54,407 bases of DNA from a bacterium (lineage in GTDB: Bacteria > Myxococcota_A > UBA9160 > SZUA-336): assembly GCA_024226335.1 (NCBI GenBank), contig JAAELY010000157.1:1-54407 (forward strand). Reading direction: 5' to 3'. The notes beneath the pieces were generated by a model. That model did no database searches, was not told the DNA's origin, and was given only the letters and a program-made list of their open reading frames with translations. Positions 18,266 through 24,785 of the stretch are shown here, one piece after another (position 1 is the stretch's first letter; each line of letters begins with the position of its first letter). The position numbers and the translations under genes are program-made.

Positions 18266-20086
18266 ATGAGCGAGTCTGGATCTGGTTCGGGTAGACGAGG
18301 CTTCGTGCGCGACGTAATGAAGCGCATCTCCACGCGAGGGGGCGAAGGCGAAGACAATCCGGTGCAGAGCGAGGTGGACGACCTCGAAAGTCTGCGCGAC
18401 GCACTCCGCTTCCTCGGACCTGAGGCCAGCGATCTGACGCGGCGAGTCGAGCGTGTCTTGATGGAGTACGAACTCCTGCGCCAGCGCTACGATCGCGCGC
18501 GCCAGCAGGTGTACGACGCCGAACAGCAGAATGAGAAGCTGGTCGGAACTCTGCAGGACGCGAAGCAGCAGATCGATCTCCTCAAGCAGGAAGTCGACAA
18601 GCTGTGTGCTCCGCCGAATACCTACGGCTTGTTCGAGCACGCCAACAAGGATGGCACAGTAGAAATCAACGTCGACGGCAAGATGATGCGTGTGAACGCG
18701 GATCCGAACGTGCGCACCGACGAACTGATGGAAGGTCAGCTCGTCGTGCTGAATGAGGCGTTCAATATCGTCGACTCGACCGACTTCGACCACCGCGGTG
18801 AGGTGATGCAGGTTTCGGACGTGCTGCACGACGGCCGTTTGATCGTGCTCGGCCATGCGGACGAGGAGCGCGTGATCAGTCTCAGCCAGCCGATGCGTCG
18901 CGAGAAGCTGAAGGCGGGCGACAATGTGCTGGTCAATCCGCGCACGGGTTTCGCCGTCGAGAAGTTGCCGAAGTCGACCGTCGACCAGGTCATGCTCGAA
19001 GAGGTTCCCGACGTCACCTACGAAGACATCGGAGGCCTGGGCGATCAGATCGAAGTACTACGCGACGCGATCGAGTTGCCATACCTGCACGCAGACGAGT
19101 TCAAGCGCTACGACCTGTCGCCGCCCAAGGGTATCCTGCTCTACGGACCTCCGGGCTGCGGCAAGACCATGATCGGCAAAGCGGTGGCGAACAGCCTCGC
19201 GCAGCGTATCGCTGAGGTTCGCGGCGGGGAGGCGAAGAGCTATTTCCTGAACGTGAAGGGCCCGGAGCTGCTCAATAAGTACGTCGGTGAGACGGAGCAC
19301 AAGATCCGAGAGGTCTTCAAGACCGCTCGAGACAAGGCGGAAGAGGACGTTCCTGTCGTCATCTTCTTCGATGAAATGGACTCGCTGTTCCGCATGCGCG
19401 GCTCTGGCATCTCCTCGGACATGGAAGCGACTGTCGTCGCGCAGTTCCTGTCGGAGATCGACGGCGTCGAGTCGCTGCGCAACGTCATCGTGATCGGCGC
19501 GTCGAACCGCCAGGATCTGATTGACCCCGCAGTTCTGCGTCCAGGGCGCCTCGATCTGAAGGTCAAGGTGCACCGCCCGGAGCGCGACGGTGCTCGTGAG
19601 ATCCTGATCAAGTATCTGACCGAGAACCTGCCGTTCCACGAAGACGCGAAGAAGCGCTTCGGCGACGATCCGGGTGCAATCGTGCGCGGGCTCTGCACGG
19701 ATACGATTGATTCAATGTACGGCGAGACCGAGGAGAACAAGTTCCTCGAGGTCACCTATGCCAAGGGTGAGCGCGAGATCTTCTACTTCAAGGATTTCTC
19801 CAGCGGCGCCATGCTGCGCAATATCGTGGACCGCGCAAAGAAGCGGGCCGTGAAGCGCGCCATCACCAATGGCGACGGCGGAATCCATATCGACGATATG
19901 CTCGACTCGGTTCGGGACGAGTTCAAGGAGAACGAGGATCTCCCGAACACGACGAACCCCGACGACTGGGCTCGGATCTCCGGACGCAAGGGTGAGCGCA
20001 TCATCAACGTGCGCACCTTGATCAGCGGAATCAACCGAAACGAGCGCTCGATCGAGACCGTCGGAGGATCCGGTCAATATCTCTAG
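18266..20086 (+). CDS. mpa: proteasome-associated AAA ATPase Mpa/ARC
   Basis: 606 residues, the length expected for Mpa/ARC. The ATG has GAGGAAGG upstream. Residues about 35-113 form the N-terminal coiled coil that captures Pup (VERVLMEYELLRQRYDR, QQNEKLVGTLQDAKQQ). Tandem OB domains follow to about 240. The AAA module has Walker A GPPGCGKT (294-301), Walker B VVIFFDEMD (364-372) and arginine-finger region RPGRLD (425-430). The protein ends GQYL, the same terminal motif as Mycobacterium Mpa, where it docks into the 20S alpha ring and opens the gate. It should unfold pupylated proteins and feed them to PrcA/PrcB. It is the first gene of a seven-gene run, 61 bases before dop. Confidence 0.96.
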   Translation: MSESGSGSGRRGFVRDVMKRISTRGGEGEDNPVQSEVDDLESLRDALRFLGPEASDLTRRVERVLMEYELLRQRYDRARQQVYDAEQQNEKLVGTLQDAKQQIDLLKQEVDKLCAPPNTYGLFEHANKDGTVEINVDGKMMRVNADPNVRTDELMEGQLVVLNEAFNIVDSTDFDHRGEVMQVSDVLHDGRLIVLGHADEERVISLSQPMRREKLKAGDNVLVNPRTGFAVEKLPKSTVDQVMLEEVPDVTYEDIGGLGDQIEVLRDAIELPYLHADEFKRYDLSPPKGILLYGPPGCGKTMIGKAVANSLAQRIAEVRGGEAKSYFLNVKGPELLNKYVGETEHKIREVFKTARDKAEEDVPVVIFFDEMDSLFRMRGSGISSDMEATVVAQFLSEIDGVESLRNVIVIGASNRQDLIDPAVLRPGRLDLKVKVHRPERDGAREILIKYLTENLPFHEDAKKRFGDDPGAIVRGLCTDTIDSMYGETEENKFLEVTYAKGEREIFYFKDFSSGAMLRNIVDRAKKRAVKRAITNGDGGIHIDDMLDSVRDEFKENEDLPNTTNPDDWARISGRKGERIINVRTLISGINRNERSIETVGGSGQYL

Positions 20087-20147: not shown

Positions 20148-21632
20148 ATGCCACTTCCCAGTGTACTGGGCACGGAAATCGAGTATGGGATCACAGTCCA
20201 GGGCGACCCGGACTTCGATCCGATCTCGAGCTGCGTCCTGCTGGTCAATGCCTATCACGACCACGACGACGCGCAGATCCTCTGGGACTACGACCAGGAG
20301 AATCCGCTGGCCGATGCGCGGGGATTCCAGGTAGAGGGTGAACGACACACACCCAACCAGCAGGAGAACATCGCTCGCAACAAGACATTGCGAAACGGTG
20401 CTCGCTTCTATGTCGACCACGCTCATCCGGAGTACTCGACTCCCGAAGTGACCAACGTCCGCGAAGCGATCGCCTACGAGCGCGCAGGTGAGCGGACCAT
20501 GGAACTGGCCCGCCGCGCGGCTACCGCACTGCTCCCGCCGGGTCAGCAACTCCTGATTCACAAGAACAATAGCGACCGCAAGGGCAACTCGTACGGCAAT
20601 CACGAGAACTACCTGATCAATCGTCGTACACCCTTCAAGGAAGTGGTCGAGCACTTCACGCCATACTTGGTCACGCGCCAGATCTTCTGCGGATCGGGTA
20701 AGGTCGGCAGCGAAAATCGCGCCATGCAATGCGACTATCAGATTTCGCAGCGCGCAGATTTCTTCGAGACCGAGGTCGCGCTCGACACGATGGTCAAACG
20801 ACCGATCATCAACACACGCGACGAGCCGCATGCCGACCGCGAGAAGTACCGGCGCCTGCACGTGATCGTCGGCGACTCGAATATGTCCGAAGTTTCCACG
20901 TACCTGCGCGTGGGCACCAGTGCGATCGTCCTGGCGTTGATCGAAGACGGTGTAATCGATCGCGAGATGGCGATCAGTGAACCCGTCAAGGTGATCAAGG
21001 AAGTCTCGCACGATACGGCGTGCAAGCGCGAGTACTCGATGGAGCGAGGCGGTCGCATGACCGCGGTGCAGGTCCAGCAGGAGTATCTGGAGCTGGCGCT
21101 GAGCTACTACAGTTCGCGCGAGATCGACCCGGTTACCAAGGACGTGTTGGCCCGCTGGGAATCCGTGCTCGAGAAGCTGGCCGACGATCCATTTCAGCTG
21201 GATCGCGAGGTCGACTGGGTGATCAAGCACAAGATCATGCAGAGCTACATGCGCCGCCACTCGGTCGACTGGTTGCATCCGCAGATCGCCATGCTCGATC
21301 TGCAATACCACGATGTTCGCCCGGACAAGGGACTCTGTTTCCTGCTCGAGCGCCGCGGGGAGATCGACCGTATCGTCGAGAATGAAGAGATCGAGCGCGC
21401 GATCATCGAACCACCGACCGACACACGGGCCTACTTCCGAGGAGAGTGCATTCGCCGCTATCCGGAAGCCGTGTTTGGTGTGAACTGGGATTCCATTTCA
21501 TTCAACGTAGGTGATGAACCCATCAAGCGGATCCTGATGAACGAACCGCTGAAGGGAACCAAGGCACACGTCCAGGAGCTCCTCGATGCGAGCACGAGTG
21601 CTGAAACCTTGGTTCGGAATCTGACGTCGTAA
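20148..21632 (+). CDS. dop: Pup deamidase/depupylase Dop
   Basis: 494 residues, homologous to PafA with a glutamine-synthetase-like fold. The ATG follows GGGAGAAGA. Seen: GTEIEYG with the metal-binding glutamate near residue 10; the Dop-specific loop (DYDQENPLADARGFQ) that distinguishes Dop from PafA; the catalytic aspartate in ARFYVDHAHPEYSTPEV; and INTRDEPHADREKYRRLHVI. Dop cleaves the isopeptide bond between Pup and target lysines, and in actinobacteria it also deamidates Pup's C-terminal Gln. Because the Pup encoded next door already ends in Glu, only the depupylase activity appears necessary here. It sits 18 bases upstream of pup. Confidence 0.96.
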   Translation: MPLPSVLGTEIEYGITVQGDPDFDPISSCVLLVNAYHDHDDAQILWDYDQENPLADARGFQVEGERHTPNQQENIARNKTLRNGARFYVDHAHPEYSTPEVTNVREAIAYERAGERTMELARRAATALLPPGQQLLIHKNNSDRKGNSYGNHENYLINRRTPFKEVVEHFTPYLVTRQIFCGSGKVGSENRAMQCDYQISQRADFFETEVALDTMVKRPIINTRDEPHADREKYRRLHVIVGDSNMSEVSTYLRVGTSAIVLALIEDGVIDREMAISEPVKVIKEVSHDTACKREYSMERGGRMTAVQVQQEYLELALSYYSSREIDPVTKDVLARWESVLEKLADDPFQLDREVDWVIKHKIMQSYMRRHSVDWLHPQIAMLDLQYHDVRPDKGLCFLLERRGEIDRIVENEEIERAIIEPPTDTRAYFRGECIRRYPEAVFGVNWDSISFNVGDEPIKRILMNEPLKGTKAHVQELLDASTSAETLVRNLTS

Positions 21633-21650
21633 TCCTTTTAGGAGGCTCAC

Positions 21651-21908
21651 ATGAAAATCATGAAGAGGGCACAGGCCATGGGTTATTCGATACCCGGCGC
21701 GGCCGGAGACCAGTCCCAGAAGCAACGTCAGGGCGACGGCGATTCCGGAGATGAGGCGTCGGCCGACTCGGGCGGAAGCAAGAAGATGGCCAAGAAGGGC
21801 GAGGATCTGAAAGAAGAGATGGACAGCTTGATCGATGAGATCGATGAGGTCCTCGAAGAAAACGCCGAAGAGTTCGTCAAGAACTACGTTCAGCGCGGAG
21901 GCGAGTAA
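21651..21908 (+). CDS. pup: prokaryotic ubiquitin-like protein Pup (GGE end)
   Basis: 85 residues; the ATG follows a perfect AGGAGG. The C-terminal half matches Pup strongly: KKGEDLKEEMDSLIDEID, VLEENAEEFVKNYVQ, and the terminus RGGE. Mycobacterial Pup is 64 residues and ends GGQ, which must be deamidated. This one ends directly in Glu and is ready for ligation by PafA. The first 45 residues are longer than in typical actinobacterial Pup: MKIMKRAQAMGYSIPG, then an acidic, Gly/Ser/Gln-rich disordered stretch. The central helices would bind the Mpa coiled coil, and the N-terminus would be engaged by the Mpa pore. Pup tags proteins for proteasomal degradation. Confidence 0.96.
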   Translation: MKIMKRAQAMGYSIPGAAGDQSQKQRQGDGDSGDEASADSGGSKKMAKKGEDLKEEMDSLIDEIDEVLEENAEEFVKNYVQRGGE

Positions 21909-21915
21909 GCCTGTG
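21898..21915 (+). promoter_or_regulatory. prcB ribosome binding site inside the Gly-Gly-Glu codons of pup
   Basis: The last codons of pup are GGA GGC GAG TAA (21897-21908). GGAGG within them is the only Shine-Dalgarno for the prcB GTG at 21913, about 11 bases downstream. This decides the prcB start: the open frame extends upstream inside pup, but no other start has such a signal. Confidence 0.7.
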
Positions 21916-22692
21916 TTCAAAGGTCAGACTTACACAGGGGCGAGCTTCTACGAATTCTTGAAAGCCGATGCCCCCGGGTTGATTCCGGACTTCGGCAATA
22001 TGGACTGGACCACCGTCGAGCTTCCTCACGGTACCACCGTACTCTCACTGACCTACGACGGCGGTGTGTTGATGGCGGGTGACCGTCTGGCCACTGCGGG
22101 TCACGAGGTCGCGACGCGCGACATGGACAAGGTCTTTCGCATCGATCACACCTGCATGATGGCGATCGCCGGTGCGGCGGGTCCAGCGATCGAGATGGTG
22201 AAGATGTTCCAGCTCGAACTCGAGCACTTCGAGAAGCTCGACGGACAGGAACTCACCTTCGAGGGCAAGGCCAATCGTCTCAGCTTCCTGTTGCGCCAGA
22301 ATCTGCCGGCAGCCATGCAGGGGCTGGCCGTCATGCCTCTGTACGCAGGCTACGACCACGATTCCGACAAGGGCCGGATCTACAAGTTCGACATCACCGG
22401 TGGTCGCTATCGGGAGACGGACTTCTACGCAACCGGTTCCGGTGGCAAGGACGCGCGCTCGAGCTTGAAGCGGGCCTGGCACAGCAATCTATCCAGAGAG
22501 CAGGCCACCGAGATTGCGATCGAAGCGCTCATGGAAGCCGCCGACGAAGATACCGCGACCGGTGGTTTCGATATCTCGCGCGGGATCTACCCGATCGCGA
22601 AGTTCGCAAATAAAGAAGGCGCAGTGGACGTTCCCGAGGCAGAGGTCCTCGCCGCCCGCGAGCGCATTCTCGCACGTCGAGAGGCCGCCTAG
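21913..22692 (+). CDS. prcB: proteasome beta subunit PrcB
   Basis: 259 residues from the GTG at 21913. A propeptide of 40 residues (containing SFYEFLKADAPGLIPDF, as in actinobacterial PrcB) ends at HG, and processing before Thr41 exposes the nucleophile (TTVLSLTYDGG). Counting from that threonine, the catalytic partners fall exactly at Asp17 (MAGD) and Lys33 (RDMDK). The later GSGGKDARSSLKR and ADEDTATGGFD motifs match the family. PrcB forms the two inner heptameric rings that hold the proteolytic sites. It starts 4 bases after pup and its stop abuts the prcA ATG, so stoichiometric expression is likely. Confidence 0.97.
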   Translation: MFKGQTYTGASFYEFLKADAPGLIPDFGNMDWTTVELPHGTTVLSLTYDGGVLMAGDRLATAGHEVATRDMDKVFRIDHTCMMAIAGAAGPAIEMVKMFQLELEHFEKLDGQELTFEGKANRLSFLLRQNLPAAMQGLAVMPLYAGYDHDSDKGRIYKFDITGGRYRETDFYATGSGGKDARSSLKRAWHSNLSREQATEIAIEALMEAADEDTATGGFDISRGIYPIAKFANKEGAVDVPEAEVLAARERILARREAA

Positions 22693-23376
22693 ATGAGTAC
22701 ACCGTTCTACGTTCCACCCGAACAGCTCTACCAGGAGCGCGCAGAGTACGCGCGCAAAGGGATCTCGCGCGGTCGTCCGCTCGTTGCGCTGGAGTACGAA
22801 CTCGGCGTGGTGATGATGGCCGAGAACCGCAGTGCAAGTCTGCGGAAGCTCTCCGAGATCTACGATCGCATCGCGTTTGGCGGTGTGGGCAAGCTGGACG
22901 AGTATGAAAACCTGCGGAAGGCCGGGGTTCGCTATGCGGATCAGCGCGGATTCGCGTTCTCGCGTGAGGACGTTTCCGCCAAGGGTCTGGCGAATGAATA
23001 CTCCACGGTGCTGGGTTCGGTCTTCACGCGGGAGATGAAGCCCTTCGAGGTCGAAGTTCTGGTGGTCGAGGTGCACGATGACAGCAGCACCTTCTTCCAG
23101 ATTCGGTACGATGGAAGCATGATCGACCACACTCACTACGCCGCGATCGGCGGAGATGGCGACAAGCTGCTCGATATGCTGGCGACCCGCTGGAAGGCGA
23201 GCATGCCGCTCGACGAGACGGTTCTTCTGGGTCGGGAAGCGCTTTCCGGTAACGGCTCGGGTGTGGACGATCTGGACGAGAAGAGTCTCGAGGTTGCGGT
23301 CCTGGATCGCACGCAGACCGGTCGCAGATTCAAGCGCCTCAAGCCAGAGGAAATCAAGAGCCTCCTGAGCGGATAG
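22693..23376 (+). CDS. prcA: proteasome alpha subunit PrcA
   Basis: 227 residues. The N-terminus MSTPFYVPPEQLYQERAEYA followed by RKGISRGRPLVAL matches the gating end and alpha-type helix H0 of bacterial proteasome alpha subunits. SEIYDRIAFGGVGKLDEYENL and ADQRGFAFSREDVSAKGLAN follow. No catalytic threonine is present, as expected. PrcA makes the outer heptameric rings that control entry and receive the C-terminal QYL of Mpa. The ATG directly follows the prcB stop codon, and pafA starts 2 bases downstream. Confidence 0.96.
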   Translation: MSTPFYVPPEQLYQERAEYARKGISRGRPLVALEYELGVVMMAENRSASLRKLSEIYDRIAFGGVGKLDEYENLRKAGVRYADQRGFAFSREDVSAKGLANEYSTVLGSVFTREMKPFEVEVLVVEVHDDSSTFFQIRYDGSMIDHTHYAAIGGDGDKLLDMLATRWKASMPLDETVLLGREALSGNGSGVDDLDEKSLEVAVLDRTQTGRRFKRLKPEEIKSLLSG

Positions 23377-23378
23377 TT

Positions 23379-24785
23379 ATGCAGAAGCGGATCTACGGGC
23401 TAGAAACGGAGTATGGGATCATCTTCACACCGGAGGGTCGCAAGACTCTGCCGGTCGAGAAGGCGATCCGCTTCCTTTTCGAAAAGCTCATCACCACCGA
23501 ACACTTCCTGAACGTGTTTCTGGAAAACGGTGCCCGCTTCTATCAGGACACGGGGTGTCACCCGGAGTACGCGACGCCCGAGTGCGCCAGCCCGCGCGAT
23601 CTGGTCATTTTCGATCGCGCCGGTGAGAGAGTTCTCGAAGATCTGCAGTTGTATGCGGAAGAGAAGATTCGGGAGGAACGCGTCCCGGGCAAGCTCTCTA
23701 TCTTCAAGAACAACACAGACTTCGTCGGCAATAGCTATGGCTGCCACGAAAACTATCTGGTCGATCGTGACGTCGACTTCTACTACCTGGCCGAGCAGTT
23801 AATTCCGTTCCTGGTTACCCGCCAGGTTTTCTCCGGCGCAGGCAAGGTGTTTCAGACCCAGGACGGCGTTCACTACTGCGTCAGCCAGCGTGCCCAGCAC
23901 ATCTACCAGAAGATCTCCGGTACCACGACCAACGATCGCTCGATCATCAATACGCGCGATGAACCGCACGCCGATCGCGAAAAGTACCGACGGCTGCACG
24001 TAATCGTGGGCGATTCGAACATGTCGGAGTACACGAACTTCGTGAAGATCGCGACCTGCGCGGTCGTTCTCCAGATGATCGAGGACGGCTTCATCAATAA
24101 GGAATTGACGCTCCGCCACCCGGTGAAGGCGATCAAGGACATCTCGTACGACACGACCTGCAAACGCAAGGTGCGTCTGGAGAACGGACGCGAGTACTCG
24201 CCGATCGAGATCCAGCGCGAGTATTGTGAGATGGCCCAGCGCTACATCGAGCAGGCTCCGGTCAGCGATCAGATCCGAGAAGGTGTGGAGCAGTGGGCGT
24301 ACATCCTCGACTGCCTCGACGACGATCCCGAAAAGCTCGACCGGAAGATCGACTGGGTGATCAAGCGCAAACTCCTGCGCCAGTACATCAAACGACACAA
24401 CATCTCGTGGCATGATCCACGCGTGTTCATGATCGATCTGCAATTCCACGACATCAGGCGCGATCGCGGCTTTTTCTACCTGCTCGAGCGCCAGGACCAC
24501 GTGGATCGGCTCTATTCCGATGCCGAGATCGAGAAGGCCAAGACCGAACCGCCGCAAGACACCCGCGCGCGCATGCGTGGCGACTTCATCAAGCTCGCTC
24601 GGCAGAACAATATCCAGTACGACCTGGACTGGTCCAATATTCGACTGGGCAATCTCTTGAACGTGCGCGTGATCTGCAACAACCCGTTCGAGACCGATAC
24701 GGAAAAGGTCACCGAACTGGTTCGCACGATCCAGAAGACCAATCTGCGCCGGACTTCGCTCTCAAAACTGGTCATCCAGAGCTGA
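23379..24785 (+). CDS. pafA: Pup-protein ligase PafA
   Basis: 468 residues, the usual PafA length. It activates the C-terminal Glu of Pup with ATP and joins it to lysine side chains. Seen: RIYGLETEYGIIF with the Mg-binding glutamate, the catalytic aspartate in ARFYQDTGCHPEYATPEC, NNTDFVGNSYGCHENY, INTRDEPHADREKYRRLHV, and PPQDTRARMRGDFIKLA. It lacks the Dop loop, which separates it from dop in the same operon. Order and spacing (2 bases after prcA, 6 before the next gene) show a single transcription unit. The two paralogues share long identical patches such as NTRDEPHADREKYRRLHVI. Confidence 0.97.
   Translation: MQKRIYGLETEYGIIFTPEGRKTLPVEKAIRFLFEKLITTEHFLNVFLENGARFYQDTGCHPEYATPECASPRDLVIFDRAGERVLEDLQLYAEEKIREERVPGKLSIFKNNTDFVGNSYGCHENYLVDRDVDFYYLAEQLIPFLVTRQVFSGAGKVFQTQDGVHYCVSQRAQHIYQKISGTTTNDRSIINTRDEPHADREKYRRLHVIVGDSNMSEYTNFVKIATCAVVLQMIEDGFINKELTLRHPVKAIKDISYDTTCKRKVRLENGREYSPIEIQREYCEMAQRYIEQAPVSDQIREGVEQWAYILDCLDDDPEKLDRKIDWVIKRKLLRQYIKRHNISWHDPRVFMIDLQFHDIRRDRGFFYLLERQDHVDRLYSDAEIEKAKTEPPQDTRARMRGDFIKLARQNNIQYDLDWSNIRLGNLLNVRVICNNPFETDTEKVTELVRTIQKTNLRRTSLSKLVIQS

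Follow-up and report, generated by a model that had tools for sequence, protein, structure and literature searches.

The pup locus

The window, by which we mean the whole 54,407-nucleotide stretch of DNA analysed, comes from an uncultured bacterium of Myxococcota type ("Deltaproteobacteria") and contains a Pup-proteasome operon of the ordinary kind. Six genes, mpa-dop-pup-prcB-prcA-pafA, are linked and co-oriented on the + strand between positions 18266 and 24785, the arrangement by which such an operon is recognized. The features that matter for the following sections are:

18266..20086, + strand: mpa/arc, proteasome-associated AAA ATPase, 606 aa (TIGR03689 equivalog, 728 bits, cut-off 505)
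20148..21632, + strand: dop, predicted depupylase/deamidase of Pup, 494 aa, with Dop loop and catalytic Asp90 (TIGR03688, 582 bits; alignment to AceDop 4b0r)
21640..21645, + strand: Shine-Dalgarno-like AGGAGG ahead of the pup ATG (read from the sequence)
21651..21908, + strand: pup, 85 aa, C-terminal ...RGGE (PF05639, TIGR03687 and the sequence itself)
21903..21905, + strand: final pup codon GAG (Glu), which is CAG (Gln) in many relatives, one C<->G transversion apart
21913..22692, + strand: prcB, 20S proteasome beta subunit (TIGR03690, 287 bits)
22693..23376, + strand: prcA, 20S proteasome alpha subunit (TIGR03691, 260 bits)
23379..24785, + strand: pafA, Pup ligase, 468 aa (TIGR03686, PF03136 and operon position)

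The Pup translation (MKIMKRAQAMGYSIPGAAGDQ...EENAEEFVKNYVQRGGE) ends in ...NYVQRGGE, with the codons GGA GGC GAG and the TAA stop at 21897-21908. It scores 72.4 bits against Pfam PF05639 (cut-off 27) and 60.6 bits against NCBIfam TIGR03687 (cut-off 41.45), and its RGGE terminus has the C-terminal GG[EQ] form required of a Pup. The original prediction, that this Pup is encoded with a GGE end and that Dop is nevertheless retained, is thus confirmed by the sequence and the adjoining dop gene. A second pup ending in GGQ elsewhere in the genome had been named as the finding that would count against it; this candidate was rejected, since only one Pup emerged when the whole assembly (5.75 Mb, 97% complete) was searched. 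The start of prcB is probably the GTG at 21913, judging from the reading frame and the position of the pup stop. PafA falls just below the TIGR03686 equivalog cut-off (546 bits against 551), and its PF03136 score of 505 bits and its operon position agree with its identity as PafA.

Dop passes the TIGR03688 equivalog cut-off (582 bits against 492), and its nearest relative of solved structure is AceDop of Acidothermus (4b0r/5lrt; E about 1e-161). Alignment to AceDop bears out the claim that it carries both the Dop loop and the catalytic aspartate. The loop, which is absent from PafA, is ILWDYDQENPLADARGF at about residues 44-60, and the aspartate of the motif NGARFYVDHAHPEY is D90, which aligns to AceDop D94. 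W46 and D90 are invariant in the alignment of Dop proteins of the class, and the combination of loop, Trp and Asp that identifies a Dop is therefore complete. The protein is predicted to have both depupylase and Gln-deamidase activity.

The mycobacterial Pup-proteasome system has the same component set in the same order around dop-pup-prcB-prcA, but its Pup ends in Gln and needs deamidation by Dop ahead of ligation, whereas the Pup of the window ends in Glu. The pupylation locus of Corynebacterium glutamicum resembles ours in encoding Pup with a terminal Glu together with Dop and PafA, with Dop acting as depupylase (PMC3511204, PMC8599861); it lacks prcBA (PMC8223512), whereas the window operon encodes the 20S core. 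Pups of Deltaproteobacteria, Nitrospirae and other non-actinobacterial phyla, for which Iyer et al. gave the end as G[EQ] in 2008, share this terminus and have linked PafA homologues (PMC2588565).

Glu and Gln ends among relatives

We surveyed 91 genomes of the class, most of them fragmented MAGs, with the pattern YVQRGG[EQ]-stop, which fixes Pup positions -7 to -1. The pattern recovered Pup in 78 of the 91 genomes. A search with the Pfam HMM found Pup in the same 78, yielded no extra Pups and gave none in the remaining 13, so that no other kind of Pup end was overlooked. Run on 379 genomes of the phylum, the Pfam search gave only one weak match outside the class, below the cut-off. We fetched 80 operons and kept 79 after dropping one near-duplicate contig. 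In these 79 distinct operons, 47 Pups end in GGE and 32 in GGQ. A Dop ORF adjoins pup in every operon, although some Dop ORFs are cut by the contig end.

Both ends occur among close relatives. Genus code g17 is mixed (Gln in G018 and G075, Glu in G027 and G031), and so is g9 in the window's own family (Glu in G008, Gln in G010). A similar pattern applied to a sample of Actinomycetota gave 51 Glu and 66 Gln ends, which are pattern matches and not individually confirmed, and Nitrospira-type genomes are also mixed. Among the class genomes that lack a Pup match, G009, G011, G063, G070 and G091 have a PafA/Dop match that appears to lie at a contig end or close to one, and G047, G060 and G084 have no Dop/PafA match at all. 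A scan of viral contigs with a pattern for the pup-prcB junction gave no match. One bin (G038) holds two Pup operons, one GGE and one GGQ (L189 and L190), which could reflect duplication, transfer or contamination (4%).

Pace of exchange at the last Pup residue

We built a tree from the other five operon proteins (2066 columns) and mapped the Pup ends onto it. The last residue underwent at least 20 E/Q changes; the 14 residues at positions -15 to -2 underwent none, of which -7 to -2 are held fixed by the search pattern and -15 to -8 are not. In a two-state rate model on the same tree, 122 synonymous C/G third positions serve as reference, and the E/Q rate falls at their 43rd percentile; of 43 two-state amino-acid sites, 42 change more slowly. 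The fitted rates of E->Q and Q->E do not differ significantly. E->Q is favored on four terminal branches, and the residue has probably changed in both directions. Since it changes at about the pace of synonymous C/G sites, the Glu/Gln exchange looks nearly neutral in these genomes while Dop is present, with neutrality as the suggested cause. This near-neutral toggle is the only point of the locus that is new, and only modestly so.

We consider it highly probable that the locus is an ordinary operon with a PafA-ready Pup whose end drifts near-neutrally and with a Dop that would serve in removal and reuse. Pup would be translated directly in the PafA-ready PupE form, PafA would join it to lysines of the targets through the side chain of the terminal Glu, and the targets would be degraded by Mpa/ARC with the PrcAB 20S core, with Dop taking Pup off for reuse. 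If Dop is always present and uses one active site to hydrolyze both the amide of a terminal Gln and the isopeptide bond, Gln- and Glu-ended Pup should work about equally well, and the final codon would then drift between GAR and CAR close to the synonymous rate.

Fluctuating or lineage-specific selection on the terminal residue, for instance through an activation delay imposed by Gln, is an unlikely alternative, although the best of those that we weighed. The two ends show slight clustering on the tree (20 changes, where shuffled labels give a mean of 25 and 13 of 1000 shuffles come as low), the residues before the end are invariant, which indicates that the site matters, and Pup-GGQ is reported not to be a proteasome substrate (PMC3769308). 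The match to the synonymous C/G rate and the lack of a significant difference between the two directions both argue against selection. The slight clustering is as for any inherited site, and it may reflect a weak lineage preference.

Constraint on Dop in Glu- and Gln-ended lineages

Purifying selection on Dop is equally strong in GGE and GGQ lineages. In sister pairs, Dop dN/dS ranges from 0.035 to 0.109 for E-E and from 0.017 to 0.093 for Q-Q, and the end branches of Dop are 1.89 times (E) and 2.13 times (Q) as long as those of PafA (p=0.14). Both measures reject faster Dop evolution in GGE lineages. The catalytic residues of Dop are invariant in the class. In 2874 column tests no notable E/Q-associated column appeared in Dop; the best associations, with p about 4e-4, are in PafA. 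Deviations at conserved sites in E tips show no excess that is specific to Dop, with E/Q ratios of 1.5 for Dop, 2.4 for PafA and about 2.1 for PrcA and PrcB. We therefore reject a Dop signature of GGE lineages on the grounds of column associations and conserved-site deviations. The Dop loop would not report on a loss of deamidase activity, since Dop of M. smegmatis retains deamidation after deletion of the loop (PMC9556782).

These data bear on the possibility that Dop of GGE lineages has specialized as a depupylase and lost its Gln deamidase, which we regard as very improbable. Deamidation is indeed unneeded where Pup ends in Glu, and one GGE relative (L160, from G008) has Arg86->Pro and Ala85->Ser in Dop just ahead of the catalytic Asp motif, at positions where the usual residues stand in G010, its Gln-ended sister. 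Arg86 lies beside the active site and is the equivalent of AceDop R90, which stacks with the Dop-loop Trp W47 (PMC8599861). Against such a loss stand the invariant catalytic residues and the absence of a Dop-specific column or excess of deviations described above. Moreover, deamidation and depupylation are chemically equivalent and share one active site (PMC8223512), in which Dop handles both PupQ and PupE (PMC8599861), and the E->Q changes favored on several branches would block pupylation had the deamidase been lost. A return from Glu to Gln needs deamidation, so that Dop in Glu-ended lineages most likely still deamidates. The claim that this locus separates depupylase from deamidase function is consequently not supported, given the shared chemistry and active site, the absence of a GGE-linked site or rate change in Dop and the favored E->Q changes.

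What keeps dop in the operon

The equal upkeep of Dop in GGE and GGQ lineages fits depupylation and recycling as the conserved role. The original prediction had proposed that recycling of Pup, not its activation, keeps dop in the operon, and this part is supported by the presence of dop beside all 47 GGE pup genes and by the equal purifying selection; the idea is not a new one (PMC3511204, PMC12288473). The combination of a Glu-ended Pup with a retained Dop is already known from Corynebacterium, where it is explained by tag removal. A 2012 review accounted for the upkeep of dop in actinobacteria with Glu-ended Pup, such as C. glutamicum, by the depupylase activity of Dop (PMC3511204). A 2025 review states that "many species" encode PupGlu, takes this to suggest that Dop serves primarily for depupylation in them, and credits Dop with promoting the recycling of Pup (PMC12288473). 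That Dop is kept beside a Glu-ended Pup means that dop is conserved for something other than its deamidase function, as has been argued since C. glutamicum; the main inference is correct in direction and already published, and our quantitative addition to it is small.

As long as Dop is there, evolution appears to treat Glu and Gln as interchangeable, and the Glu end means less than was originally held: the choice between the two marks out no special Dop and no altered pathway. The synonymous-rate exchange in the class, together with the mixed ends in Actinomycetota and Nitrospira-type genomes, leads us to favor, with some reserve, the broader view that the last Pup residue is near-neutral wherever Dop is present. 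The Gln end would then be no regulatory checkpoint in these lineages, and the deamidase step, from which Dop takes its name, would be dispensable and, in evolution, incidental to depupylation. With the end switched naturally at least 20 times within a single tree and Dop conserved equally on both sides, the class provides replicate comparisons for the regulatory value of a Gln-ended Pup.

Solitary pup genes and a third PafA/Dop-family protein

Several loci depart from the standard arrangement. In the Nitrospira-type loci L091 and L107 (also L081, L082, L086, L109 and L110) pup stands alone, and in the first two it precedes a recJ-like ORF, apart from dop and pafA. The Nitrospira-type genomes tested (G040-G043) still encode both Dop and PafA at other sites, together with additional members of the family. 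A lone Glu-ended Pup (L071:2560-2793) occurs in a record named Patescibacteria UBA3531, whose 0.7 Mb genome has no Dop/PafA match; it could be a genuine orphan or sit on a misbinned contig. In a single-contig class genome (L254, G046:C1) an mreB-like region lies downstream of a pafA-like gene, with no Pup match and no other Pup-proteasome gene in the 12 kb covered; a frameshifted assembly is possible (68% completeness).

The genome of the window also encodes a third PafA/Dop-family protein (G000:C54:33685-35469, - strand; L252:6683-8470) of 595 aa, with a PF03136 score of 285 bits and a hydrophobic insert that is probably membrane-spanning. That the deamidase of Dop serves a second pathway or a hidden Pup with a Gln end, which this paralogue could hint at, is the least probable explanation of all, given the single Pup in the genome and the occurrence of the membrane paralogue in class genomes of either kind, GGE and GGQ, which likewise rejects it as a cause of either end. 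The protein is present in 14 of the 91 class genomes and matches the membrane-inserted PafA type of Plesiocystis and Rhodopirellula (Iyer et al. 2008, PMC2588565). In the Plesiocystis example of that study pup is linked to the membrane-inserted PafA and not to the proteasome; the operon of the window, unlike it, is canonical, and the membrane-inserted PafA-type paralogue sits elsewhere in the genome.
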